Below are positions 11,297 to 26,509 of a DNA stretch of 35,271 nucleotides, piece after piece. The notes below the pieces were generated by a model. It worked only from the letters and a program-made list of their open reading frames with translations, made no database searches and had not been told where the DNA came from. This DNA comes from Prevotellaceae bacterium (GTDB taxonomy: Bacteria > Bacteroidota > Bacteroidia > Bacteroidales > Bacteroidaceae). Location: NCBI GenBank assembly GCA_022508585.1, contig JAFLUU010000004.1, positions 1,484-36,754 on the forward strand. Reading direction: 5' to 3'. Position numbers and translations under genes: made by a program. Position 1 is the stretch's first letter. Each line of letters opens with the position of its first letter.

Positions 11297-11322
11297 TTAC
11301 GTTAACATAACCCTTTAACACG

Positions 11323-11361
11323 CAGGGGCAAGTGAGAGCAATTCTCACTTGCCCCTGTTTC
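11323..11361 (+). terminator. Intrinsic terminator downstream of rpoC
   Basis: 15-bp arms CAGGGGCAAGTGAGA (11323-11337) / TCTCACTTGCCCCTG (11343-11357) then TTTC. Confidence 0.85.
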
Positions 11362-11500
11362 ATATATCCTATCTCCCACCCCATGTACCCTAACCGCAAA
11401 CTCACGACACCTTACGCTACTCAACCATCCTCCAATCACTATTTCGGCACATAATAACCTCACAAAAAGCCGCCCCAATTGTAAACAAACGTTAAATCCA

Positions 11501-11509
11501 CCCCCCCCC
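11501..11509 (+). repeat. Homopolymeric C9 tract upstream of lipoprotein gene 1
   Basis: 'gttaaatcca ccccccccct attaac'; ends about 59 nt upstream of the putative -7 box. Confidence 0.95.
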
Positions 11510-11568
11510 TATTAACATTTTTCTTTACATAAACAAGCGTTTTTATAATTATATTTTCTATATTTGCA

Positions 11569-11576
11569 GCAGAAGG
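11569..11576 (+). promoter_or_regulatory. Putative Bacteroidetes -7 element for the lipoprotein array
   Basis: TATATTTG matches TAnnTTTG; a clear -33 TTTG is not evident. Confidence 0.45.
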
Positions 11577-11653
11577 GTCAAACAACCTCATATTTACATT
11601 GCCCTATCGGCTCACCCTATCAGCATACACAATAACGCTAAATAATTTTTACG

Positions 11654-12775
11654 ATGAAAAGTTCATTACTCCCAATCCTCCTCTGCCTCGCAGCTTTTTG
11701 TGCCTCATGCAGTAAGCAGATGACAGAAGAAGAAATGCTCAACTTTCGGTCTGACATCTCCACAGCTTATGATTTTAATCCCCCACCTATAGAACAACGC
11801 CAATACGATTTACCTCCCGGCGTAAAGGGCCGGCATGTCAACCCTTATACATACTCTTTCGTTCTCGATAGCGACCTCAAGCAGTTCTACCAGGCAGGCA
11901 TTGACCTCAGAATGAAGGTCTTGGACAACTTCTATTCGCAGATAAGCGGCGCGAATTTCAATAACTCCGACTTCAGCAATCAATACCGCCCCCTCCTCGC
12001 GCCAAATGTGCGCGCCGAGATACGAAAATACGCCAAAACAAACCATGATGGCGACGACCTATACATGTGGCAGCCCTTCACGCCCCTGCCAATCGTTAGC
12101 AAGATATACGTGCGCTACCAAATCACCTACGAGGGCGATGATTGGTTTAGCATTACCCCTATGGGCGACGACACAGGCGTCCGCCTCCGCGTGGTGCTCG
12201 CCGGCAAAAACATGATGCCGGTAATAACAGAGTTGAAAAACCCCGCTTTCGATGTCAATATCGCCATTACCGACAGCAAAGGCGTCGGCAAAGGTTACAC
12301 CCTCAAGCAAGAGTGGGAGTATGGCGTGTTCAACAACAAAGGCTACAACAACACCTACTGGAACTACGTTGCCAACATAGTGTATAACACCTGCAACGGA
12401 CACAAAGCCGACAAAGGATTCATTACCGAAGCCGAACTTCTTGCTTTTGCCGACCGCATAGAGCGCAAGCGCGCACAATTCCTGCAAGATTTCTGTGCCG
12501 ACCTCACCGCACCCAACTACACCGCGCCAACATTCGTGCAAAAGTACTCCGGCAACCTCACAACCGCTATCTCAAGCGCACTAATCGAGACAAACAAGCC
12601 TACCGCCGCAAACGAAACCCTGCCCTCCGGACTGCAAGTAGTGCTCTACGGCAAAGAACTGCGTCCCCTCGTCGTAGGACTTAGCGACGAAACCCTCGGC
12701 ATAGACATACACAAAAACTTCGATGTCCATCGCAACAACCTGTGGTATGGCATAAGCATCAATAAAGACAAATAA
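11654..12775 (+). CDS. Array lipoprotein 1 (subfamily A)
   Basis: SPII signal 'MKSSLLPILLCLAAFCASC'; two-repeat core with 'ITYEGDDWFSITPMGDDTGVRLRVVLAGK...'; C-terminus GISINKDK. Confidence 0.85.
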   Translation: MKSSLLPILLCLAAFCASCSKQMTEEEMLNFRSDISTAYDFNPPPIEQRQYDLPPGVKGRHVNPYTYSFVLDSDLKQFYQAGIDLRMKVLDNFYSQISGANFNNSDFSNQYRPLLAPNVRAEIRKYAKTNHDGDDLYMWQPFTPLPIVSKIYVRYQITYEGDDWFSITPMGDDTGVRLRVVLAGKNMMPVITELKNPAFDVNIAITDSKGVGKGYTLKQEWEYGVFNNKGYNNTYWNYVANIVYNTCNGHKADKGFITEAELLAFADRIERKRAQFLQDFCADLTAPNYTAPTFVQKYSGNLTTAISSALIETNKPTAANETLPSGLQVVLYGKELRPLVVGLSDETLGIDIHKNFDVHRNNLWYGISINKDK

Positions 12776-12879
12776 ACTACGATTATGAAACGCCTCTCCC
12801 TCCCTCAACTGCTGCCATTTCTATGTGCGTGCGCAGTGTTATCACTGGCCTCGTGCTCAAAGTCCCTCACAGACTTGGG
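11858..12879 (+). repeat. ~1022-bp direct repeat, copy 1 (gene 1 body to gene 2 signal peptide)
   Basis: Constant offset of 4975 nt to 16833-17854; differences seen only in the gene 2/6 signal-peptide region (five counted). Confidence 0.9.
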
Positions 12880-13969
12880 ATATGACACGCAAGAAAGGAA
12901 TAGTACAATGATGGGAGTTCATAACTTTGCATTTGATAGCCCAAGTTCCAGAATTGTAACCCTCTCCCGAAATTACAACTACAACGTCTACTCCTTCATC
13001 TCCGACGAAGATGTGAGAAATCTCCTTGCAGCACACATCTACCTCCGCGAGAGCATCTTGCATGATTTCTATGCACGCATGAACACCAAGGACTTCTCGC
13101 AGGTTGCTTTCAACAACGAGTTCAATTCACTCTGCGCGCCGGATATTCTCGCCGTTGCTACTAACTACGCCAAGCAAAATCCAGACAACGCTCTGGGCGG
13201 TTGGCAAATCTTCAAACCGATGCCCGGCCTCAACGCTATAAAAGCGGAAAACGATATTACCTACGAGGGCAACGACTGGTTTAGCATCACACCAAAAGGC
13301 GATGATACGAAAGTTCGCTTAAAAGTAGTGATGACCCCTTACAAGATGCGCCCTGTCATTGTTGCGGTAGACAATCCTGCCTTCGGCATCAGTGCAACCA
13401 AACAGGCAGAGTCAAAGTTAGCCAAAGGCTACAAAAACATGAAGAAATTCATTTATAGCCCTGCTTATACATTCCCGAGAAGTAAATCCTACTTCGCTAC
13501 ACTCTCCCAAAAAATATCTCGCATCAGCGACGCAGCCCAACGGGGCGTAGTAACGGAAGGCGATTTCAGCCTCTTCCTTAATCAGACCATCAAAGAGCGA
13601 GAGCAAATGCTGACAGCGTTCCTCAACGAGCTCAGCGTAAAGGACATCAACAAGCACCGGCTCTCACGCAAGTATGACAATTGGCTTCACGCCGATGTAA
13701 ACAAAGCTATCATCTCTGCCCAAGAAAACAAAAGCGACAAATGGAACGCCTTTAATACCGGCAGCAACACACCCAACATCGTCTACGAGGGCAACAATTG
13801 GTTCCGACTCTCATCAGACAGCGACAAGGCAAAAGACATTCAAGTCCAGATGATACTAAACAAAGACGGACGGACACCAATCATCACCGGTCTTGTCAAT
13901 CCCGACGCAGGCATCGCCTTAGGCACCGACTTTAGCCTAAACATTTACTTATCTCGCGCCAGTCGTTAA
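12785..13969 (+). CDS. Array lipoprotein 2 (subfamily B)
   Basis: SPII signal 'MKRLSLPQLLPFLCACAVLSLASC'; 'ITYEGNDWFSITPKGDDTKVRLKVVM' and second 'IVYEGNNWFRLSSDSD' repeat. Confidence 0.85.
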   Translation: MKRLSLPQLLPFLCACAVLSLASCSKSLTDLGYDTQERNSTMMGVHNFAFDSPSSRIVTLSRNYNYNVYSFISDEDVRNLLAAHIYLRESILHDFYARMNTKDFSQVAFNNEFNSLCAPDILAVATNYAKQNPDNALGGWQIFKPMPGLNAIKAENDITYEGNDWFSITPKGDDTKVRLKVVMTPYKMRPVIVAVDNPAFGISATKQAESKLAKGYKNMKKFIYSPAYTFPRSKSYFATLSQKISRISDAAQRGVVTEGDFSLFLNQTIKEREQMLTAFLNELSVKDINKHRLSRKYDNWLHADVNKAIISAQENKSDKWNAFNTGSNTPNIVYEGNNWFRLSSDSDKAKDIQVQMILNKDGRTPIITGLVNPDAGIALGTDFSLNIYLSRASR

Positions 13970-14035
13970 ATATCTTTCGATAACTAACAGCGACCTCACA
14001 GTACCAAAGTCCACTTTCACCAACACGCAATCATT

Positions 14036-15259
14036 ATGAAACATTCTTTCCTCCCAACCCTCCTCTGCCTCGCAGCCCTCTTGTCTTCTTGCCACAGCAA
14101 CACAGAGGATATTGTCAGTCATAAACACGAAGCGGTCTACGCCTACGAAGGAATGTACACACAGACACAGTTTCTCCCTCACAAAGAGGATATTCCTTCA
14201 GTTCAGACAATAAACTCTAACACTCTTCCCGCGTCGAAAACCGGCGATGAAGTCTACACCTTTGTCTTGAGCAACGACATAAAGCAGTTTTATCAGGCAA
14301 GCATTGTCCTCAGAATGAAAGTATTGAACAACTTTTATTCAGACATAGCCGCAGGCAACTTTTATAACCCCGACTTTGCTCGGCAGTATCAGCCGCTTCT
14401 CTCGCCGTACATCAGAAAAGCCGTGCGCCAATACGCCAAAGCTGCCAATCCCCGCAACGACATCTACGCTTGGCAGCCTTTCACGCCCCTGCCCATCGCC
14501 AGCAAGATATACACACGCTACGAAATAACCTACGACGGCGATGACTGGTTTAGCATCAAACCTATCGGCGACGACACGAGTGTCAGACTTAAAGTTGTGC
14601 TTGCAGGCAAGGAGATGCACCCCGTCATTGCAGAGATAAGCAATCCCGCTTTCGACATCAATACAGGTCTTGGCACAAGCAATAACCTCGGCTCGGGCTA
14701 CACTTTCAATCAAGACTGGGAGTTCGGCATTTTCAATAATTGTAAGGGTAACCGCAATTATTGGAACTATATAGCCGGCATCATCTATCGCCACCGCGCG
14801 GCAGGCAAGAGTGGTAACAGCTTTATCTCCGAGGCCGAACTCTTGGCTTTTGCCGACCGCATAGAGCAGAAGCGTGAGCAATTCCTGCAGGACTTCTGTG
14901 CCGACCTTACCTCAACAGCCTACACAGCGCAAACCTTCTCTCAGAAGTATGACCGAAACATCACCCGCGATGTCGCCAAGTCTTGCAGCGAGTCCTCTCA
15001 GCCCTTGTCCCTCCTCCAGATGTTTGCGCCCAAAGACCGGAAGCACTACACCATCACCCATATCGACCGCGATTGGTACGGCATCTCCAGCGCCGACTCG
15101 TTAAACCCCGACCTCAAGGTGCAGGTAGTCTTCTACGAGCGAGAGATGCGCCCCCTCATCGTAGGTCTCTGCAACGATGCTCTCGGCATTGACAGCCAAT
15201 CGGACTTCGGTCTACGCCGTGACGCCTATGTAAGCGGCATACAAATAAACAAGCAGTAA
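14036..15259 (+). CDS. Array lipoprotein 3 (subfamily A)
   Basis: SPII signal 'MKHSFLPTLLCLAALLSSC'; 'ITYDGDDWFSIKPIGDDTSVRLKVVLAGK'; retains a second domain 'ITHIDRDWYGISSADSLNPDLKVQVVFYEREMRPLIVGL'. Confidence 0.85.
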   Translation: MKHSFLPTLLCLAALLSSCHSNTEDIVSHKHEAVYAYEGMYTQTQFLPHKEDIPSVQTINSNTLPASKTGDEVYTFVLSNDIKQFYQASIVLRMKVLNNFYSDIAAGNFYNPDFARQYQPLLSPYIRKAVRQYAKAANPRNDIYAWQPFTPLPIASKIYTRYEITYDGDDWFSIKPIGDDTSVRLKVVLAGKEMHPVIAEISNPAFDINTGLGTSNNLGSGYTFNQDWEFGIFNNCKGNRNYWNYIAGIIYRHRAAGKSGNSFISEAELLAFADRIEQKREQFLQDFCADLTSTAYTAQTFSQKYDRNITRDVAKSCSESSQPLSLLQMFAPKDRKHYTITHIDRDWYGISSADSLNPDLKVQVVFYEREMRPLIVGLCNDALGIDSQSDFGLRRDAYVSGIQINKQ

Positions 15260-15301
15260 CCCTCTGCCGTCGACCCGCCCCAAAACAAATACCTTTGCCT
15301 T

Positions 15302-16465
15302 ATGAAGGATCATCATTTCCCTACAAGCGCATTCCTTTTGTTCGTTGCAGTAATGCTGTTCGCCTCTTGCTCGCGGTCATTGACCGACTTGGGGTATTCA
15401 ACAAGGTATATCATATATGATAAGTGGGACAGGCGTACTCAACCTATCACCAATCCGGAGGAATACCTCTTGCTGTCAAGAACAGGCACCTACAAAACAA
15501 ATCAGATAATCTGCGATGAAGGTGTGAGAAATTTCCTCGCGGCACAAATATACTTCCGCCAGAACATCTTGAAGGATTTCTATGCGCAAATGAATGCCGC
15601 CGACTTCTCGTCCGACGCATTCGCCAAAGAGTATAGCTCCCTCTGCGCACCCGATATTCTTAACGCTGCAACGAACTACGCCAAAGCCAATCCCGACAAC
15701 GCTTTGGGCGGCTGGCAGGTCTTCAAACCTATGCCCGGACTCGACACAAAGAAAGCCAAATACGACATCGCCTATGAGGGCGACGACTGGTTTAGCATCA
15801 CTCCCGACGGCGACGATGTGGGAGTAAGGCTTCGCATCGTTTTGACGGCCGACAAACTGCGTCCTGTCATTGTAGCGGTAGAAAATCCCGCCTTTGATGT
15901 GAGTGCTGCCATAGAAGCCGGCTCCAATGTAGGCAAGGGCTACAAGAATGTAGACAACTACTCACTCGGCGTCGTCAGGTTGCCTCTAAGAAATCAATCT
16001 TACTTCGATTGGCTCGCTAAAAAACTGTCGCACATCAGCGGTGTCGCAGAGCGAGGCGTTGTAACGGAAGCCGACATCACTGATTTCTACAACGATATGG
16101 TTGAAGACAGAGCGATGCAGCTCACCGCGTTTATTAGCGCGCTCGGCGCCACAGACTTCAACAATCGCCAGCTCTCGCACAAGTATGGCAATTGGCTGAA
16201 TATAGATGTGAACCGAGCAATCACCGCCAATGCCGGCAAAAGCGGCAAGTGGAACGCCTTCAACACCGGCGGCGAAAAGACAAACATCGCCTACGAGGGC
16301 AACAACTGGTTCCGCCTCTCGTCTGATGCTGACAGCACAAAAGAGATTATGGTGCAAATGGTGCTCTGCGGCAACAAGCAGTTACCTATCATCACCGGTC
16401 TCAACAGTCCTACCGACGGCATAGCATTAGGCACCGACTTTAGCCTAACTCGCGCCAGTCGTTAA
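15302..16465 (+). CDS. Array lipoprotein 4 (subfamily B)
   Basis: SPII signal ending 'MLFASC'; 'SRSLTDLGYST' after the Cys; two YEGxxWF repeats. Confidence 0.85.
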   Translation: MKDHHFPTSAFLLFVAVMLFASCSRSLTDLGYSTRYIIYDKWDRRTQPITNPEEYLLLSRTGTYKTNQIICDEGVRNFLAAQIYFRQNILKDFYAQMNAADFSSDAFAKEYSSLCAPDILNAATNYAKANPDNALGGWQVFKPMPGLDTKKAKYDIAYEGDDWFSITPDGDDVGVRLRIVLTADKLRPVIVAVENPAFDVSAAIEAGSNVGKGYKNVDNYSLGVVRLPLRNQSYFDWLAKKLSHISGVAERGVVTEADITDFYNDMVEDRAMQLTAFISALGATDFNNRQLSHKYGNWLNIDVNRAITANAGKSGKWNAFNTGGEKTNIAYEGNNWFRLSSDADSTKEIMVQMVLCGNKQLPIITGLNSPTDGIALGTDFSLTRASR

Positions 16466-16484
16466 ATATCTGTCGATAACTAAT

Positions 16485-16571
16485 AGCGACGAAACCCTCG
16501 GCATAGACATACACAAAACTTTCGATGTACATCGCAACAACATATGGTATGGCCTGCGACTAAACAAATAG
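16485..16571 (+). pseudogene. Orphan 3' fragment of a subfamily A lipoprotein gene
   Basis: Translates in frame to SDETLGIDIHKTFDVHRNNIWYGLRLNK*, matching the C-terminus of genes 1 and 5 (SDETLGIDIHKNFDVHRNNLWYGISINKDK), with no start or upstream body. Confidence 0.85.
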
Positions 16572-16604
16572 TAACAAACACCCACTACACAAACTACAAT
16601 AGCT

Positions 16605-17750
16605 ATGAAAAAAACATTTCTCCCAATCCTCCTCTGCCTCGCAGCCTTATGTTCTTCCTGCAACAAGCAGATGACAGACAATGATATGCCTTATGTGGAA
16701 AAAGACGGTCGCACATTCTATGGCCGTTCCTATTTAGTCGAGGACTTAAATCCTCCACCCATTACCCAACGCCAGAACTTTAAGCCCCAAAGCTTCTACA
16801 CCGCAGGCTATAACAGCAACACCGATTATTCCTTCGTTCTCGATAGCGACCTCAAGCAGTTCTACCAGGCAGGCATTGACCTCAGAATGAAGGTCTTGGA
16901 CAACTTCTATTCGCAGATAAGCGGCGCGAATTTCAATAACTCCGACTTCAGCAATCAATACCGCCCCCTCCTCGCGCCAAATGTGCGCGCCGAGATACGA
17001 AAATACGCCAAAACAAACCATGATGGCGACGACCTATACATGTGGCAGCCCTTCACGCCCCTGCCAATCGTTAGCAAGATATACGTGCGCTACCAAATCA
17101 CCTACGAGGGCGATGATTGGTTTAGCATTACCCCTATGGGCGACGACACAGGCGTCCGCCTCCGCGTGGTGCTCGCCGGCAAAAACATGATGCCGGTAAT
17201 AACAGAGTTGAAAAACCCCGCTTTCGATGTCAATATCGCCATTACCGACAGCAAAGGCGTCGGCAAAGGTTACACCCTCAAGCAAGAGTGGGAGTATGGC
17301 GTGTTCAACAACAAAGGCTACAACAACACCTACTGGAACTACGTTGCCAACATAGTGTATAACACCTGCAACGGACACAAAGCCGACAAAGGATTCATTA
17401 CCGAAGCCGAACTTCTTGCTTTTGCCGACCGCATAGAGCGCAAGCGCGCACAATTCCTGCAAGATTTCTGTGCCGACCTCACCGCACCCAACTACACCGC
17501 GCCAACATTCGTGCAAAAGTACTCCGGCAACCTCACAACCGCTATCTCAAGCGCACTAATCGAGACAAACAAGCCTACCGCCGCAAACGAAACCCTGCCC
17601 TCCGGACTGCAAGTAGTGCTCTACGGCAAAGAACTGCGTCCCCTCGTCGTAGGACTTAGCGACGAAACCCTCGGCATAGACATACACAAAAACTTCGATG
17701 TCCATCGCAACAACCTGTGGTATGGCATAAGCATCAATAAAGACAAATAA
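16605..17750 (+). CDS. Array lipoprotein 5 (subfamily A)
   Basis: SPII signal 'MKKTFLPILLCLAALCSSC'; identical to gene 1 from 'FVLDSDLKQFYQ' to the C-terminus. Confidence 0.85.
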   Translation: MKKTFLPILLCLAALCSSCNKQMTDNDMPYVEKDGRTFYGRSYLVEDLNPPPITQRQNFKPQSFYTAGYNSNTDYSFVLDSDLKQFYQAGIDLRMKVLDNFYSQISGANFNNSDFSNQYRPLLAPNVRAEIRKYAKTNHDGDDLYMWQPFTPLPIVSKIYVRYQITYEGDDWFSITPMGDDTGVRLRVVLAGKNMMPVITELKNPAFDVNIAITDSKGVGKGYTLKQEWEYGVFNNKGYNNTYWNYVANIVYNTCNGHKADKGFITEAELLAFADRIERKRAQFLQDFCADLTAPNYTAPTFVQKYSGNLTTAISSALIETNKPTAANETLPSGLQVVLYGKELRPLVVGLSDETLGIDIHKNFDVHRNNLWYGISINKDK

Positions 17751-17854
17751 ACTACGATTATGAAACGCCTATCTTTCTCTCAACTGCTGCCATTTCTATG
17801 TGCGTGCGCAGTGTTATCGCTGGCCTCGTGCTCAAAGTCCCTCACAGACTTGGG
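16833..17854 (+). repeat. ~1022-bp direct repeat, copy 2 (gene 5 body to gene 6 signal peptide)
   Basis: As for copy 1; the same ORFs appear in the other frames and strand (identical 160-aa antisense and 69-aa +frame ORFs), supporting nucleotide identity. Confidence 0.9.
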
Positions 17855-19091
17855 CTACGAGTCCCAATTCACCTCAAGCAGTCGTGATATATGGCAACCA
17901 AACACATCATACGGCACGATGAGCTGGAGTCCTGTGCCGAGTGGCGGTTTCTTTGCAGGCGGATCTTATACTACCCACTACAAATTTGACAGCCATAAGC
18001 TCATCAATGACGCCAATGTCAACAATCTGTTTAAGGCGTATGTCAACATCAAGACACAAGTGCTGCAAAACTTCTATGCAGACATGAACACTCAGACATT
18101 TGCCAATACAGCCTTCAGCAAAGAGTATGTCCCTCTTTGCTCTCCCGACATACTGAGTGCAACAGACCGATTTGCCCTTGGCAACACCGGCAGCGCCATA
18201 GGCGGCTGGCAAATCTTTAAGCCCACACCCGGCCTCGACGAACCAAATGCAAAGTACACCATTGCATACGAGGGCGACGACTGGTTCAGCGTCAAGTCCG
18301 CAGACAATAACGTTGGCGTGAGGCTGCGCATTGTGCTGACGCCCGACAAACTGCGCCCCATCATCGTGGCGGTAGACAATCCCGCCTTTGGCATCAGCGT
18401 CAATCAGGCAGCCAACACCGACTTAGGCAAAGGCTACCCCTATACAAAGAATTTTATACTCGGGCTTACCATTACAGGAGCAAACATCTTCTCGTGGCTA
18501 AACAAGACCTTCGTACGCGAGAGCGGCGCAAAGCAGGGAGAAGCTATCACGCAGGCGCACTTCGAGCACTTCTTCCAAACAAATATCGCCCAAAGAGAGC
18601 AACTATTGTCTAATTTCTACAGCGAACTCCGCTCCCCGAAGTTTACCAAGCACAAGTTCTCAAACAGATACACCACTTGGCTCAACTACGACATAGACCA
18701 AACCGCATACACCTCTAAAGGCAAAAAACATAATAAGCATTTAGGCAAATGGAATGCCTTTACTGCCGATAGCTACACGCAACAAATCATCTACGAAGGC
18801 GACGACTGGTTTCGCCTCGCTGTAGAGCAACCCGACACAAGCCTCAACACCTCATCTTTGCAAGACATACATGTGCGCATAGTAACGTTTGGCCGCGACA
18901 AACGCCCCATTATCGTAGGGCTATTCAATCCGCAGAAAAACATAAGCGCAGGTGCAGACATTGCTAAGTACATTATGCCCTCCTATTTCAGTATCTGGCG
19001 AAAGCAACCACCTACACCGAGCATCAACACCGCTCACAGACAAAGCAATTACACCTCTCACCGCAGCAATTATACTTCTGCCAATAACTAA
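17760..19091 (+). CDS. Array lipoprotein 6 (subfamily B, with C-terminal extension)
   Basis: SPII signal near-identical to gene 2; two YEGDDWF repeats; unusual tail 'AKYIMPSYFSIWRKQPPTPSINTAHRQSNYTSHRSNYTSANN'. Confidence 0.8.
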   Translation: MKRLSFSQLLPFLCACAVLSLASCSKSLTDLGYESQFTSSSRDIWQPNTSYGTMSWSPVPSGGFFAGGSYTTHYKFDSHKLINDANVNNLFKAYVNIKTQVLQNFYADMNTQTFANTAFSKEYVPLCSPDILSATDRFALGNTGSAIGGWQIFKPTPGLDEPNAKYTIAYEGDDWFSVKSADNNVGVRLRIVLTPDKLRPIIVAVDNPAFGISVNQAANTDLGKGYPYTKNFILGLTITGANIFSWLNKTFVRESGAKQGEAITQAHFEHFFQTNIAQREQLLSNFYSELRSPKFTKHKFSNRYTTWLNYDIDQTAYTSKGKKHNKHLGKWNAFTADSYTQQIIYEGDDWFRLAVEQPDTSLNTSSLQDIHVRIVTFGRDKRPIIVGLFNPQKNISAGADIAKYIMPSYFSIWRKQPPTPSINTAHRQSNYTSHRSNYTSANN

Positions 19092-19138
19092 CAGCGAGCC
19101 GACAGGAACAAAAACAAACCACATAAATCATTATAACT

Positions 19139-20346
19139 ATGAGACTTACACAATTTACTACCCCCCCCTATTATTGCTCATATTAGCAATTTTAATCCTC
19201 GTATCCTCATGCTCTAAGTCCCTCACAGACTTAGGATATGACACGCAGGCAAAACCGGACAGAGACTATACTCTGCTTGAGACCTATCAAGCACCGTTAC
19301 CTGAAACACCTTTTTATCGCCCGACTAATCAAAACTACGACGTATACTCCTACATAGCAGATGAAGACATACAAAACATTTTCAATGCCTATGTCTCCCT
19401 GCGGCTCAAGGTCTTACACAAGTTCTATTCAGAGATAAGCACAGACTATTTCTACCCAAAGACCTTCGACAAGGAGTATGCCACCCTTTGTTCGCCGGCC
19501 GTTGTCAAAGCCGCCGCCAACTATGCCGCCAGCAACCCCAACAGCGCCATAGGCGGCTGGCAGATACTCAAGCCTACTCTCGGTCTTGACGCGCCGAATG
19601 CAGAATACACCATAGCCTATGAGGGCAACGACCTCTTTAGCGTCAAGCCCGCAGGCGACAGTGTCGGCGTAACACTGCGCATAGAGCTCACTCCCGACAA
19701 GATGCGCCCCGTCATCGTAGGAGTAGTCAATCCGGCATTCGACATTAACGTCTGCCAGTCATTATTTGCCAACGTAGGCAAAGGGTATAAGTATCCACTG
19801 CCCTTTAGCTACAACGCCACCAAATCATACGCCCGCAGCGAGGACTACAGCCGCGACTTGGCAAAAGCCATACACAAGACAGTTAGTTCCAAAAGCCTTC
19901 ACTCTATCACAGAAGCCAGTTTTCACTTCTTTCTTGCAGGAATTAACACAGCCAGATGGCAACTGCTTAATAGCCTCGTCGAAGAATTGCATAACAAAGA
20001 TTTCAACAAGCAGCAGTTTACGCGCGAGCACTCCACACTGCTGCACACCAATGTAGCCAAAGCCATAGACACGGCGAGCAACATCGACAAGGCAGACAGC
20101 CTCGGCCAATGGGAAGCCTTTTATGTTGGCGGCACATTCCATGATATCGCCTACAAAGGGAACAACTGGTACCGCATAACGTCGATGGATAACAATCGCA
20201 AGACTATATACGTGCAAATGGTGGTCAGCAAGGACAAAGACCGCACTCCTATCATTACAGGCTTGAGCAATAACGACATGGCTATCAACGTAGGTGCAGA
20301 CTTTAATACCCGTCGCCTTCCCACCAACAGCTGGAGGTGGAAATAA
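19139..20346 (+). CDS. Array lipoprotein 7 (subfamily B), out of frame with its ATG at a C8 tract
   Basis: ATG at 19139 is out of frame with the SCSKSLTDLGYDTQ... body. With C9 it would read MRLTQFTTPPLLLLILAILILVSSCSKSLTDLGYDTQ; with C8 it reads MRLTQFTTPPYYCSY*. Confidence 0.8.
19161..19168 (+). repeat. Homopolymeric C8 tract in the signal-peptide coding region of lipoprotein gene 7
   Basis: 'atttacta cccccccc tattattgc'. Confidence 0.95.
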
Positions 20347-20415
20347 CAATAACACTTGCCGACCAATAGCGCACCAAGCACTATAGCCTTATTAACAACG
20401 GCGCAGCCGTCGCGA

Positions 20416-20466
20416 GCCGCATTGGTAAACGTCGCGCGAAGCGCGGTGTACCAACAAGAATGCGGC
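20416..20466. repeat. Nested imperfect palindrome
   Basis: GCCGCATTGGTA ... CGCGC gaa GCGCG ... TACCAA caag AATGCGGC. Confidence 0.7.
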
Positions 20467-20479
20467 GAGAGCGTAAGCG

Positions 20480-20525
20480 ACAACTCCGCTCCACAGCGCG
20501 TCAGTGCGCTATGGAGCGGAGTTGT
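20480..20525. repeat. 20-bp-arm inverted repeat
   Basis: ACAACTCCGCTCCACAGCGC / GCGCTATGGAGCGGAGTTGT, loop GTCAGT, one mismatch. Confidence 0.85.
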
Positions 20526-20607
20526 TCGTCGTAGCGCCGGCAGCAGATGTCGTGCGCGCACTATCTATAGTCGTGCAAACAGAGAGAATAAGCCTCCGCA
20601 TCGCAAG

Positions 20608-20813
20608 AAAAGGCCTCGGCACACGATTTTTGAGCCTCCGCGCCAGATTTTTGCTCGTGATAGTTTAATAATTCATATAAGAATTTTCAAAAAATCATAT
20701 AAGAATTTCCGGAAATTTATATAAGAATTTTTGAAAATTCTTATATGATTTTTTAAGGTTTCACGACATTTCTACGAATTTCGAGGCTCAAAAATCGCGC
20801 GCGGAGGCCTTTT
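20608..20813. repeat. ~206-bp inverted-repeat element with AT-rich palindromic core
   Basis: 31-bp terminal arms 20608-20638 / 20783-20813 with three mismatches; core 20-bp arms AAAAAATCATATAAGAATTT (20689-20708) / AAATTCTTATATGATTTTTT (20735-20754); three direct (c/t)ATATAAGAATTT units. Confidence 0.8.
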
Positions 20814-20899
20814 GTAGGTGTACGCACGCGCAAAAAATTGAAACGCACGACGAGAAAGTGGGGAATAGTGTTGTTTTGGGATTGTTCGGCAGCATCTTG

Positions 20900-21712
20900 C
20901 TACTCGCCCAGGAACTTTCTGACGGCGGCGAGCTCACTGTCGGAGAACTTCTGCGAGCGCATATACTGCTGGTAGCCCTGTCGGGAACCGATAGTGCCGA
21001 ACTCGCGCTGCAGGGCGGCGAAGGTGGGCATCATGATATGGCCTTCCTCCACTGCGCATCGCACGACGAGGGCTACGCGACGCCCTTTGTGGCCGTCGAT
21101 GAGGCTGTGCATCTTGGCCAACAGCGTTTGAGGATCGGCGTGCAGGATATGCAGTCCTGTGGCAGCGGTCTCTGCCGATGGCGCAGGGGCAACGGATACT
21201 GCCGACTCGCGGTGGGGCTCGGCGGCGAGGGCAGAGGGTGCGCCGAGGCGGTAGAGGCGCATGGGGCGACGCGGACGGAAGCTGTGGAGGGCGGCACGCA
21301 GCACACCCTGCACCTTGAGGCGCGCAGCCGGCTCGGCAATGGTGATGGTCTGATACTCCGGATTGGTGGGCACGAGACGCACGCTATGGGTGGCGTCGTC
21401 GCGATAGTATTGCTTGACGACAACCTCTTCGCCGTCGAGCAGAGCGACCACGATGTCGCCGTTGTGCGGAGTGGCTGCAGCGTCGAAGACGAGCATATCG
21501 CCGCTCTTGATGTCGGGCATCATGGAGTCGCCGCCGGCTTCGAGCAGAAAGGTGGTGTCGGGGTCGAGACCGAGGAAGTCGGTGAAGTTAAACCGCTCCT
21601 CGGGGAGGTCTAACAGTCCGTTGGGGCGACCGCAGGAGGCGCGGTAGTCGTACATCAGCAGGCCGGGCTGCCGGTCGCTCAGCTTGTAGTAGATAGCTTG
21701 TGCTGTTTTCAT
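20900..21712 (-). CDS. UmuD-like S24 family peptidase with C-terminal extension
   Basis: Cys-Gly cleavage-like site 'YRASCGRPNG', Ser motif 'GGDSMMPDIKSGDMLVFD', Lys motif 'EEVVVKQYY'; extra ~100-aa C-terminal region. Confidence 0.85.
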   Translation of the reverse strand: MKTAQAIYYKLSDRQPGLLMYDYRASCGRPNGLLDLPEERFNFTDFLGLDPDTTFLLEAGGDSMMPDIKSGDMLVFDAAATPHNGDIVVALLDGEEVVVKQYYRDDATHSVRLVPTNPEYQTITIAEPAARLKVQGVLRAALHSFRPRRPMRLYRLGAPSALAAEPHRESAVSVAPAPSAETAATGLHILHADPQTLLAKMHSLIDGHKGRRVALVVRCAVEEGHIMMPTFAALQREFGTIGSRQGYQQYMRSQKFSDSELAAVRKFLGE

Positions 21713-21848
21713 GGTTCTAAATAGATTTAAGGTTTTTATTTTATTGTATTATGGTGTACATTCCTCAAGGAACAATGCGGACTTGCTGCATAAACAGTCG
21801 TTACGACCGCGGACTTGGCGCACATTCCGCCGAACTTGGCACATAAAG

Positions 21849-21863
21849 CCATCCTTAGGATGG
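21849..21863. promoter_or_regulatory. Palindromic operator candidate CCATCCTTAGGATGG
   Basis: 15-nt palindrome 2 nt downstream of the -7 box; core shared with 26436-26450. Confidence 0.6.
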
Positions 21864-21865
21864 TG

Positions 21866-21896
21866 CAAAGGTAGGAGTTTTGTGCGGCATACCAAA
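21866..21896 (-). promoter_or_regulatory. Promoter for the S24 peptidase gene
   Basis: On the minus strand: TTTG-N19-TACCTTTG, matching the Bacteroidetes -33/-7 consensus (-33 at 21893-21896, -7 at 21866-21873). Confidence 0.65.
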
Positions 21897-22112
21897 GGGG
21901 AGGCGAGCGTTTTTCTGCGTGAGATGATTGCTAACGATTGCGTCTGCTTGCAGGCAAAAGATAGCAACGCCGAATAGTTGGAAACACCCCTCCCGAAGCA
22001 GTACTTTTGCACTGCGAACGGAGAGCGAGACCGACGAACGGCGGCTTGCCGGCGAGGCTCGGCAGAAGCTACCTGCGTAACGACATAACCTTATTTATAA
22101 TACCAAAAAACT

Positions 22113-22556
22113 ATGAAACATTTACTCTCTCTTAACTTCACCTTGGCTGAGCTGACGCGCTCCGCCATTGCCTGCAGGGCGGGGCTGGACAATCTGCCGT
22201 CGCTCAAGGATCAAGACAACCTGCTGGCACTGTGCCACGACATACTGCAACCGCTGCGCGAGAGCTGGGGCGAGCCGATCATAGTGAGCTCGGGCTACCG
22301 CTGCCGCGAGCTCAACGAGATGGTGGGCGGCGTGAAATACAGCGACCACATCTATGGTAATGCTGCCGATATCCGCACGTTGAGCAACCGCCGCATAGAC
22401 AACCGCTGCCTCTTCGATCTGGCCGTGAGGCTGATGGGCGAGGGCAAGCTGAAGAACGTGAAGCAGATTATCGACGAGCATGACTACAGCTGGCTGCATA
22501 TCTCACGACAGGACGGCAGGTCGACGAAACGCAACCAAGTACTCCACCAGTCGTAA
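22113..22556 (+). CDS. M15-family peptidase (D-Ala-D-Ala carboxypeptidase-like)
   Basis: 'FTLAELTRS', 'IIVSSGYRCRELNEMVGGVKYSDHIYGNAADIRT' motifs. Confidence 0.85.
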   Translation: MKHLLSLNFTLAELTRSAIACRAGLDNLPSLKDQDNLLALCHDILQPLRESWGEPIIVSSGYRCRELNEMVGGVKYSDHIYGNAADIRTLSNRRIDNRCLFDLAVRLMGEGKLKNVKQIIDEHDYSWLHISRQDGRSTKRNQVLHQS

Positions 22557-22763
22557 CGACCGGTCTTATGCGGCAAGTCCGCACCGCTAAGCAATGTTTT
22601 ATGCGGCATGTCCGCACCGCCGAGAGGTGTTTTGTGCGACAAATCGGTAATCGGCAGCAGGCGCAGGGCTATGGCTGACCGCGGAGCCACAATCCTCGGC
22701 GCAGGCTGCACATTGCATACAACAACAACTTTTATTATTAACATCTAAAAAACTTTAGAAATT

Positions 22764-23144
22764 ATGGGACTTTTAAGAACCGGTATCGTGAAGCGCTCTG
22801 TGTTTAAGGACGGCAAGAAGCTGTTCCCCACCGTGCTGCTCTACTCCAACATCACCGACCGCGAGCTTATCAACTACATGCTCCAGAACTCGCAGGTGGG
22901 CCGCACTACCGCTGTGGCCGCCGTGGAAGCCTTCAAGGCTGCGTTTACCACCTTTCTGCTCAACGGCCACACTATGGTGGTGCCGGCGGTGGGCACCTTC
23001 AGCCTCTCGGCTAAATGCAAGGCGGTGGATAGTCTCAAAGATGTGGGCAGAAGTATTCAGCGCCTCAGGATACGCTACACACCGGAGAGCATTATCAAAG
23101 TGGCTGCCAAGAGTTCGCAATTTCGCGGCTTGCTGGAGGGGTAG
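22764..23144 (+). CDS. HU-like DNA-binding protein
   Basis: HU-fold pattern 'ITDRELINYMLQNSQVGRTTAVAAVEAFKAAFTTFLLNGHTMVVPAVGTFSLSAK'. Confidence 0.8.
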   Translation: MGLLRTGIVKRSVFKDGKKLFPTVLLYSNITDRELINYMLQNSQVGRTTAVAAVEAFKAAFTTFLLNGHTMVVPAVGTFSLSAKCKAVDSLKDVGRSIQRLRIRYTPESIIKVAAKSSQFRGLLEG

Positions 23145-23215
23145 CGAGTGGCTGCAGAGCCAAGGCTACATCGGCTTATCAACAATCTTTACTAATCTTA
23201 AATCTAATTAACACC

Positions 23216-23704
23216 ATGGCATTGATCGACAACACCAAGACTAACTACGGAAAATTGGGATATTACCCCGTGAAGCTCGAAGATGAGAACACCGGCGTAG
23301 TGAAATACTACGCGCGCCTCGCCCCTTACTCCAAGAAGGAGAAGGAGGATATTAACGCCTGGGCGGCTCAGTTTAAGAAGGTGAGCGAAGCGAGCATGAA
23401 GGTGGCCTTTGAGGCTCTGGCCGAGGCTATCCAGTACTTCACTCTCAACGGCCACTCCGTGAGCCTCGAGGGTCTGGGCTCCTTTGGCCTCAGCTGCAAG
23501 AGCGGCGTGTGGGACGAGAAGAACCAGAAGTGGAAATCGGCAGGCAAGACCTCCGCGAGCGATGTGAACAGCACTGACATAAGGAGCGTGCATGTGCGTT
23601 TCCGCACCGGCACCTTGCTGCGTGAGAAGATGAAGTCCTGCCGCTTGTTTGACGTGACCAAATCGCCTTTCGGCCAGCAGTTTCTCGGCATGGCCAACGT
23701 CTAA
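23216..23704 (+). CDS. HU-related DNA-binding protein
   Basis: 'SEASMKVAFEALAEAIQYFTLNGHSVSLEGLGSFGLSCKSG' HU-like pattern; same locus. Confidence 0.75.
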   Translation: MALIDNTKTNYGKLGYYPVKLEDENTGVVKYYARLAPYSKKEKEDINAWAAQFKKVSEASMKVAFEALAEAIQYFTLNGHSVSLEGLGSFGLSCKSGVWDEKNQKWKSAGKTSASDVNSTDIRSVHVRFRTGTLLREKMKSCRLFDVTKSPFGQQFLGMANV

Positions 23705-23725
23705 CCGCCAAAAACAAGCAGCCTT

Positions 23726-23839
23726 ATGTGCAACGACAAGAACAATAACAAGACGATGACCATCATCAACGCCATACTGACGGCTATCAGCACTATCATC
23801 GGTGCGCTGTTTATGCACTCGTGCCTATCGTTGGTATAG
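23726..23839 (+). CDS. Small hydrophobic protein (37 aa), 'smalll protein'-like
   Basis: ATG...TAG encodes MCNDKNNNKTMTIINAILTAISTIIGALFMHSCLSLV; resembles the short TM peptides that accompany HU/amidase cassettes in Bacteroidales. Below the ORF track cutoff. Confidence 0.5.
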   Translation: MCNDKNNNKTMTIINAILTAISTIIGALFMHSCLSLV

Positions 23840-23921
23840 GCACGACAGGCAAAACCGGAGGCACGGACGGCATTAGCCATGCGCTCCGCGACAATTGCCG
23901 CCCGGCGGTCTGCACTTGACG

Positions 23922-23960
23922 AAATCCCCTGCCCCGAACACTCGGGACGGGGGATTTTTT
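23922..23960 (+). terminator. Intrinsic terminator after the M15/HU cassette
   Basis: AAATCCCCTGCCCCGAACACTCGGGACGGGGGATTTTTT hairpin with T run. Confidence 0.75.
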
Positions 23961-24094
23961 ATAATAATTGCACTTTTTCAGGTATTATTTTTCATAATGT
24001 TATTTAATAAGCCTATCTTTGTACATGGTTTGTATAGGTTTGCTGAAAACTCTGTGCCGACAACCGCTATAATTTACTCCCTTAATCACACGTC

Positions 24095-26353
24095 ATGAAA
24101 AAGTTATTCTACTCCCTGCTGTTTATATTTATCTGCGCCGGCCTGCAAGCGCAGGAGGCCGACCTAAGGAAGATGTCGTCGATGATTGCTCAGAAACTGC
24201 ACACGGCATATAAGGCCAACGCCCTGCACAAAACGGACAAAAGGCGCAGCGAGGCTATCTTCGCATTAGTGAAGCTGCAAAAGGGCGACAACGATGATGC
24301 GCTGCTGAGCCGAGGGTGCAAGATTGTAGACAGGATAGGCGACATCTGCTTCACTATGCTGCCGGTCAACAGCATTGCGGAACTGTCTGCCGACAGCCGT
24401 GTGATAAGGATGGAGGCTAATCCACCCATGAGTGTGCTCTTAGACAGCGTGCAGAAGAGCCATAACCTGATACCTGCATACGAAGGCAAAGATCTGCCAC
24501 AGGCATACACGGGCAGCGGAGTGGTGGTAGGAGTGGCAGACGTGGGGTTTGATTTCACCAACCCGATGTTTCTCGACAAGGAGGGCAAGAGCAGAATCAA
24601 GTCTGCGTGGGATATATACACCGGCAAGGGTGAAGGATTTCAAGGGATAGGCTCGCTATACACCACCCACGAGGAACTGATGAGGGCGCGCGGCACTTGC
24701 GACACTACGCAATATCATGGCACACACGTAATGGGCATTGCTGCAGGCAGTGCGGTGAAAGGGGGCAAATACAGGGGCATAGCGTATGAGGCCGACATCG
24801 TAACAAGTCTGGCCATGCTGTCGGGCTATACGGAAGATAACCTGAAAAGTCTGATAGAAGACATTAACCGGACATTAGAAGATGGGAATGCCGACCCTTA
24901 CTGGTCTCTCTATTTCGAAGATGACCTGTCGCTATCGGGAACAATGGATATTTTGGCTATCAAGCACATCTTTACTTATGCCGCCGAGCACAATCAGCCG
25001 TGCGTGGTGAACTGTAGCTGGGGCTCGCAGATGAGATTGGTCAGCGACTACACATTAGCGAACGAGATATTCACGGAACTGACCGGCCCGGGGCGCATCA
25101 TTGTCTGCGCGGCAGGGAATAGCTCCGACACCGACATATATAGGGTGAAACTGAATGGGGAAATCTTAGAGACTCCACTATGGTTTAAGTCGTCGATGAC
25201 GCCTGCCATAACGCTACGCTCGTCAAAAGCGTTCAGCATCACGATGCACCCTGACATAGACGGCTTCGGCACTATAGCGTTGTCGTCGGCAGACATTCCG
25301 TTGGCGACTGAAGACAGCGTGTTTGAGCAATATATCTACAAGGGAGACGAGACTAATCGCTTCGGCGTAATGAATGCGGCAAAATATATCATGGAGGAGG
25401 GAGACACGGCCTACGCTATGACTCTGCAGCTGCCCGACACGAAACTGAACACGTACAATTCGCCCTCGCTCAACCTCAAAATAGAGGGAGAAGGCGCGGT
25501 GGAGATCATGGGGCAGTATGATTGCGCCGGATTTACCAGATTTTCGCTCAATCCGAAGAATTGTCCTTACACCGTGTCGACACCTGCTGCATACGACGAC
25601 GCGATAGCCGTGGGATTTACAAGCAATCGTAATGAGTTGCCCAACATTTATAAAGACACGATAAAGGCTTCGTACAACCTGAACGAGGAAGGAAAGATTG
25701 TGTCGTGGTCCGGAACGGGGCCGACGCTTAGCGGAAATATCAAGCCGGACATCAGTGCCGCAGGATACAATATTGTGTCGGCGTACAGCAGCTTATTGCG
25801 CAAGGGGTACTACTTTGCAGAAGAAGATGTCTACAAACCTTACATTATCGACTCGCTCAGCTATGACGGCAAGCCGTATTACATGTATGTGATGAGCGGT
25901 ACGTCAATGTCTGCGCCTGTGGTTACCGGCATCATCGCCTTATGGCTACAGGCTGACCCGACTCTTACGCCTAAGCAAATCAAAGAACTCTTTGCCAAGA
26001 CTGCCACGCACCCCGAAGAGGACGAGACATACCCCAACAACCGCTATGGTTACGGAGTGATAGATGCGTACAAGGGATTGTGCGAAATTCTAAATCTGAA
26101 CACAAATATACCGGACTTTTCCGACCGGCAACCACAGAGGCTGAAAATCTCTGTTGACAATAAGAAGCTCATGCTGAACACCAATACGGAGGTTACGGTA
26201 AGTATTTACAGTCTTAACGGACATCTGCAAAGAAGAACGACAACGGACAATGGCGTTGTAGACCTGTCGGATCTGCAACCTGCAGTGTATGCAGTACAGA
26301 TAAACTCCGACGATCCGTCTGCGACAGGCTCCACACTGATTAGGCTGCAATAA
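24095..26353 (+). CDS. Secreted S8 (subtilisin-like) serine peptidase with T9SS-type C-terminal region
   Basis: Signal peptide; catalytic 'VVVGVADVGFDF', 'HGTHVMGIAAG', 'MSGTSMSAPVVTG'; C-terminus 'EVTVSIYSLNGHLQRR...LQPAVYAVQINSD'. Confidence 0.9.
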   Translation: MKKLFYSLLFIFICAGLQAQEADLRKMSSMIAQKLHTAYKANALHKTDKRRSEAIFALVKLQKGDNDDALLSRGCKIVDRIGDICFTMLPVNSIAELSADSRVIRMEANPPMSVLLDSVQKSHNLIPAYEGKDLPQAYTGSGVVVGVADVGFDFTNPMFLDKEGKSRIKSAWDIYTGKGEGFQGIGSLYTTHEELMRARGTCDTTQYHGTHVMGIAAGSAVKGGKYRGIAYEADIVTSLAMLSGYTEDNLKSLIEDINRTLEDGNADPYWSLYFEDDLSLSGTMDILAIKHIFTYAAEHNQPCVVNCSWGSQMRLVSDYTLANEIFTELTGPGRIIVCAAGNSSDTDIYRVKLNGEILETPLWFKSSMTPAITLRSSKAFSITMHPDIDGFGTIALSSADIPLATEDSVFEQYIYKGDETNRFGVMNAAKYIMEEGDTAYAMTLQLPDTKLNTYNSPSLNLKIEGEGAVEIMGQYDCAGFTRFSLNPKNCPYTVSTPAAYDDAIAVGFTSNRNELPNIYKDTIKASYNLNEEGKIVSWSGTGPTLSGNIKPDISAAGYNIVSAYSSLLRKGYYFAEEDVYKPYIIDSLSYDGKPYYMYVMSGTSMSAPVVTGIIALWLQADPTLTPKQIKELFAKTATHPEEDETYPNNRYGYGVIDAYKGLCEILNLNTNIPDFSDRQPQRLKISVDNKKLMLNTNTEVTVSIYSLNGHLQRRTTTDNGVVDLSDLQPAVYAVQINSDDPSATGSTLIRLQ

Positions 26354-26435
26354 CGTCTGGGTTAGGTGTGGTCGGGTTAGGTTATTCGTGCATCAACATA
26401 AAGAAAATAATCCAAAACTGGACTTAGAGATAAAT

Positions 26436-26450
26436 CTATCCTTAGGATAG
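26436..26450. promoter_or_regulatory. Palindromic operator candidate CTATCCTTAGGATAG
   Basis: 15-nt palindrome directly upstream of the -33 box; shares ATCCTTAGGAT with 21849-21863. Confidence 0.55.
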
Positions 26451-26451
26451 T

Positions 26452-26483
26452 TTGGCTTTTCGCTCGCCTTGCACTAACTTTGT
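26452..26483 (+). promoter_or_regulatory. Promoter for the Lrp/AsnC gene
   Basis: TTTG-N20-TAACTTTG. Confidence 0.65.
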
Positions 26484-26509
26484 ACTGCAAAACAAAAACA
26501 CAATAGAAT

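Follow-up and report, generated by a model that had tools for sequence, protein, structure and literature searches.

The window analysed here, a stretch of 35,271 nucleotides, carries seven lipoprotein genes arranged head-to-tail downstream of rpoC. Behind the fourth of them lies a short open stretch that looks like the 3′ end of a gene of the neighbouring type, and this raises the question of whether an entire gene once stood at this site. The initial annotation described the stretch as a deletion scar, that is, a 29-codon orphan end left behind gene 4 by the microhomology-mediated loss of an A-type gene. We asked how far the arrangement of the array bears out this description and which other histories could have produced the same sequence.

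Organization of the lipoprotein array

The array products have ~370–440 residues and belong to two types, A (genes 1, 3 and 5) and B (genes 2, 4, 6 and 7), which alternate along the array as far as gene 6, the fragment site aside (Table 1). A lipobox cysteine is present in all seven products, with S18 and C19 invariant and a variable stretch behind the cysteine. In most of these lipoproteins, a domain with the motif YEGDDWF occurs twice. In the AlphaFold model of gene 3 (pLDDT 72), two repeats are predicted, each consisting of about three helices followed by a small antiparallel sheet. This model has no confident match among solved folds, no solved relative was found by sequence either, and the family gave no Pfam or NCBIfam match above cut-off.

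Table 1. Features of the array and of the gene 4–gene 5 junction (positions in the window)
Feature	Position	Strand	Description
Gene 1 (A1)	11654..12775	+	A-type lipoprotein; lacks ~34 residues of the second domain
Gene 2 (B1)	12785..13969	+	B-type
Gene 3 (A2)	14036..15259	+	A-type, full length
Gene 4 (B2)	15302..16465	+	B-type
Gene 4 (B2) trailer	16466..16484	+	Homologue of the gene 2, 6 and 7 trailers (ACTAACAGCG motif)
Join	16484..16490	+	TAGCGAC, found likewise in the A 3′ end; gene 2 trailer has AGCGAC (13989-13994)
Orphan A-type 3′ end	16485..16571	+	28 codons and TAG; off the gene 4 frame; without start codon
Fragment–gene 5 spacer	16572..16604	+	Weakly like both the A-gene flank and the B-to-next leader
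Gene 5 (A3)	16605..17750	+	A-type
938-base tract	16833..17770	+	Identical to 11858-12795 (A1 through start of B1)
Gene 6 (B3)	17760..19091	+	B-type; C-terminal extension reaches into trailer
Gene 7 (B4)	19139..20346	+	B-type; frame broken at C8 run behind ATG

Several further features of the array were noted. The residues missing from genes 1 and 5 (around 12560-12640 and 17535-17615) include second-domain strands and are kept in gene 3 and in the A genes of relatives. At the start of gene 7 (19139-19170), with its run of eight C behind the ATG, the frame as read ends after 15 codons, and another frame encodes a full lipoprotein signal peptide; the run is a possible slippage switch, or else a sequencing error. 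The only other run of seven or more C in the window is a run of nine (11501-11509) between rpoC and gene 1, ~150 bases ahead of the latter. Finally, gene 7 is followed by an almost perfect inverted repeat (20480-20525; arms of 20 bases, loop of 6), perhaps the terminator of the array.

The stretch behind gene 4 is a relic of an A-type gene

The stretch reads AGCGACGAAACC...AAATAG and translates as SDETLGIDIHKTFDVHRNNIWYGLRLNK*. It matches the 3′ ends of genes 1 and 5 at 23 of 28 residues and 73 of 87 bases (84%), and gene 3 or the A genes of relatives at only 8–9 of the 28 residues. When the whole gene 4–gene 5 spacer (139 bases) was compared with the rest of the array, the score was 64, and none of 100 shuffles scored above 19; the orphan end claimed in the initial annotation is thus confirmed, as 28 codons and a stop. 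The same comparison of the gene 2–gene 3 spacer as a candidate second scar scored 15 (shuffle maximum 17), which we took as chance. A search of the whole genome with the fragment gave significant matches to genes 1 and 5 only, in both cases at the 3′ end (E 1e-23).

The first ~34 bases of the fragment are identical to genes 1 and 5, and the remainder diverges without any indel, with the reading frame kept and mostly conservative changes (N/T, L/I, I/L). These codon-like differences suggest that the fragment derives from a working A allele, which would have been under selection at the protein level up to its truncation. As had been proposed, this version is carried by none of the present A genes.

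Only 28 of the ~380 codons of an A gene are retained. Since the fragment is out of the gene 4 frame, has no start of its own and follows an intact gene 4 stop, it is a relic, with significant homology to intact paralogues but without a start and most of the coding sequence. The fusion behind gene 4 that had been described therefore holds for the DNA and not for the protein: a gene 4–fragment fusion product is ruled out by the stop at 16465 and the different frame. The fragment is most likely untranslated and functionless. Its frame is open over 28 codons, as a short translated peptide would need, and a regulatory RNA element at this junction could also be imagined. However, no ATG, GTG or TTG occurs in frame within the open stretch, none of the inverted-repeat pairs listed lies inside it and such a piece is present at no other array junction, and a use of this kind is scarcely credible.

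The join lies at a short identity shared by B trailers and A 3′ ends

Every B-gene trailer contains a ACTAACAGCG-like motif, 14–16 bases past the stop or, in gene 6, overlapping it. The gene 4 trailer is 92% identical to that of gene 2 over 25 bases, in agreement with the proposal that a B-type trailer precedes the fragment. The two then part: the gene 2 trailer continues with AGCGACCTCACAGTACC and that of gene 4 with TAGCGACGAAACCC, which is the A 3′ end. The native spacer found behind AGCGA of genes 2 and 6 (ACCTCACAGTACCAAA.. and GCCGACAGGAACAAAA..) is absent directly behind the gene 4 trailer.

With the gene 2 trailer as a proxy for gene 4's own and the A1 3′ end as the A side, AGCGAC was present on both sides of the join, as had been claimed. 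The join reads ACTAA-T-AGCGAC, and its T matches the A 3′ end (cttAGCGAC). The base before AGCGA(C) is C in the trailers of genes 2 and 6 and T in that of gene 7 (ACCAATAGCG), so the shared stretch measures 6 or 7 bases. At least 6 bases are common to both sides, whereas randomly placed joins in the array reach this figure at a rate of about 0.2%, and these data support short-homology joining.

Probable loss of an A gene at the junction

Deletion is the best reading of the junction and in our view a probable one: an A-type gene would once have stood between genes 4 and 5, and a break or replication slip would have joined the AGCGAC in the trailer of gene 4 to that close to the A-gene 3′ end, by short-homology end joining or slipped replication. 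The leader of the A gene and all its codons but the last 28 would have been removed at this step. The homology of the fragment begins at AGCGAC on the left and runs on the right to the gene end, as expected of a 3′ remnant. Deletion is favoured because the fragment matches an A 3′ end far beyond chance and because the native spacer of genes 2 and 6 does not directly follow the gene 4 trailer. The 6 or more bases shared at the join and the codon-like differences point the same way. Moreover, the ~34-residue in-frame loss in genes 1 and 5 and the frameshift in gene 7 indicate that this array sheds sequence. Provided that an A gene had stood there, deletion is the simpler, single step.

Three points count against it. 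The undeleted arrangement was seen in no genome searched. Deletion also requires either that two A genes (the lost one and gene 5) followed each other or that a B gene was lost as well, contrary to the A-B alternation elsewhere up to gene 6. The third concerns the spacer in front of gene 5, which has a weak likeness to the A-to-B spacer, that is, the A-gene flank (ACTACRAT..TATG, p 0.02–0.04), and somewhat resembles the gene 6–gene 7 spacer (p 0.005–0.016), with 22 of 33 positions matching at the best offset (p about 0.005, before multiple-comparison correction). The latter likeness would fit insertion into a B-to-A spacer, but neither is decisive; a short templated insertion is the main rival of deletion.

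According to this alternative, ~81 bases were copied from an A-gene 3′ end, perhaps that of gene 5 or of gene 1 before conversion, into the gene 4–gene 5 spacer, with no extra gene involved. The template switches would have occurred at AGCGAC (left) and at AGTAAC-like bases (right). The sequence behind the fragment, AGTAACAAAC, is similar to AGTACCAAAG and AGGAACAAAA, found in the spacers that follow genes 2 and 6, and for this reason the insert would end on both sides at short identities. However, the right-hand likeness is weak and lies in A/C-rich sequence. AGTAAC is also an equally natural A-gene end, gene 3 ending with AACAAGCAGTAAC and the A gene of a relative with TGGTAACAAAGC, and it would be a coincidence for an insert to stop at the stop codon. 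We regard such an insertion as rather unlikely.

A tract shared by genes 1 and 5 bears on the origin of the fragment

The 938-base tract that is identical around genes 1 and 5 crosses the A-B spacer into the B signal peptide. Outside it, the two genes are less similar (only 50–60% in the variable part, 82% in the signal peptide region), a pattern that suggests a recent gene conversion or duplication. As a separate event, a tract of at least 938 bases would thus have been copied between genes 1 and 5. Because this identity lies beside diverged N-terminal parts, one of the two genes probably had its 3′ end overwritten. The identity of the fragment to genes 1 and 5 (84%) is comparable to that of their unconverted 5′ ends (82%), which also speaks for the templated insertion. 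The fragment may accordingly represent what gene 1 or gene 5 originally had at its 3′ end, copied to the upstream site before conversion took place; with one 3′ end overwritten and such similar identities, an additional lost gene is likely but not strictly required.

The same tract shows that duplication or conversion has been active here, which would suit a seam left by tandem duplication of a block that began in an A 3′ end, reached the gene 4 trailer and was later partly lost; the occurrence of AGCGAC at both ends also suits it. However, no upstream source, namely this 3′ end followed by gene 5-like sequence, is present in the window or the genome, and a further loss is needed, so that we find this history very unlikely.

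The host assembly (array on contig C111) is a draft of 176 contigs, 86% complete and probably metagenome-assembled like those of its named relatives, and the exact 938-base repeat could hardly be bridged by short reads; a contig wrongly joining two strains or copies was thus also considered. This is highly improbable, since the fragment and both joins lie in locally unique sequence, with over 250 bases separating them from the start of the long repeat, while at the join genes 1 and 5 are matched exactly over only ~35 bases and the fragment differs from both genes.

Distribution of the family and of the array

The named members of the genus are rumen Bacteroidaceae/Bacteroidales metagenome assemblies (goat, yak and others). 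The lipoprotein family occurs in 6 of the 19 genomes of the genus, the host included; in the relatives, the homologues lie elsewhere in the genome as single genes or B-A pairs. Protein searches found it in none of 282 other genomes sampled in the taxonomic family, and a profile search of 295 sampled genomes of the order found it in none but the host. Outside the host, neither the array nor the fragment was recovered from the DNA of the genus, the genus and family proteins, the order profile search, GTDB contigs, viral contigs or phages; the DNA search of the remaining genus genomes gave no significant match to the fragment.

In the window, ~15 kb (11297-26509) separate rpoC from an Lrp gene and hold the array, a LexA-like gene, HU-like genes and a subtilase-like gene. 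This stretch is absent at the same site in one relative (G002), where the Lrp gene directly follows rpoC; in another (G004), one half-size B gene precedes the Lrp gene. As the array was found in no relative, there is no parental arrangement for comparison. Of the claimed microhomology-mediated loss, the orphan A 3′ end and the short identity at the join are thus upheld; that a whole A gene stood there and was deleted is probable.

Comparison with known systems

Bacteria are known to lose DNA lying between short direct repeats (PMC8149714). The junction described here resembles the RecA-independent, short-homology deletions produced by alternative end joining or slipped replication (PMC8149714) in that it joins at 6–7 shared bases and keeps one copy of the repeat; it differs in that the loss of intervening DNA is deduced and not read from an undeleted parent.

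By itself, the fragment says nothing new on mechanism. It records one turnover step in a genus-restricted lipoprotein array, whose copy number and allele content change through small joins and tract copying, and it fits the ordinary birth-and-death turnover of duplicated paralogues. A broader reading would make the array a locus of surface-lipoprotein variation, in which conserved ends recombine around the variable N-terminal part and members are switched on and off by C runs, the fragment being a scar of this shuffling or a leftover donor for it; we hold this to be quite unlikely. The 30-mer ACACAAAACTTTCGATGTACATCGCAACAA is the sequence that would identify strains of interest in rumen metagenomes.

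The tandem lipoproteins of Staphylococcus aureus are an example of birth-and-death evolution among tandem lipoprotein paralogues. We know of no sequence relation between them and the rumen array and, unlike the S. aureus system, the array family has so far been found only in one rumen genus of Bacteroidaceae. The two are nevertheless alike in their head-to-tail genes, with a conserved signal peptide and a variable part, in the exchange of tracts and in the presence of truncated members.
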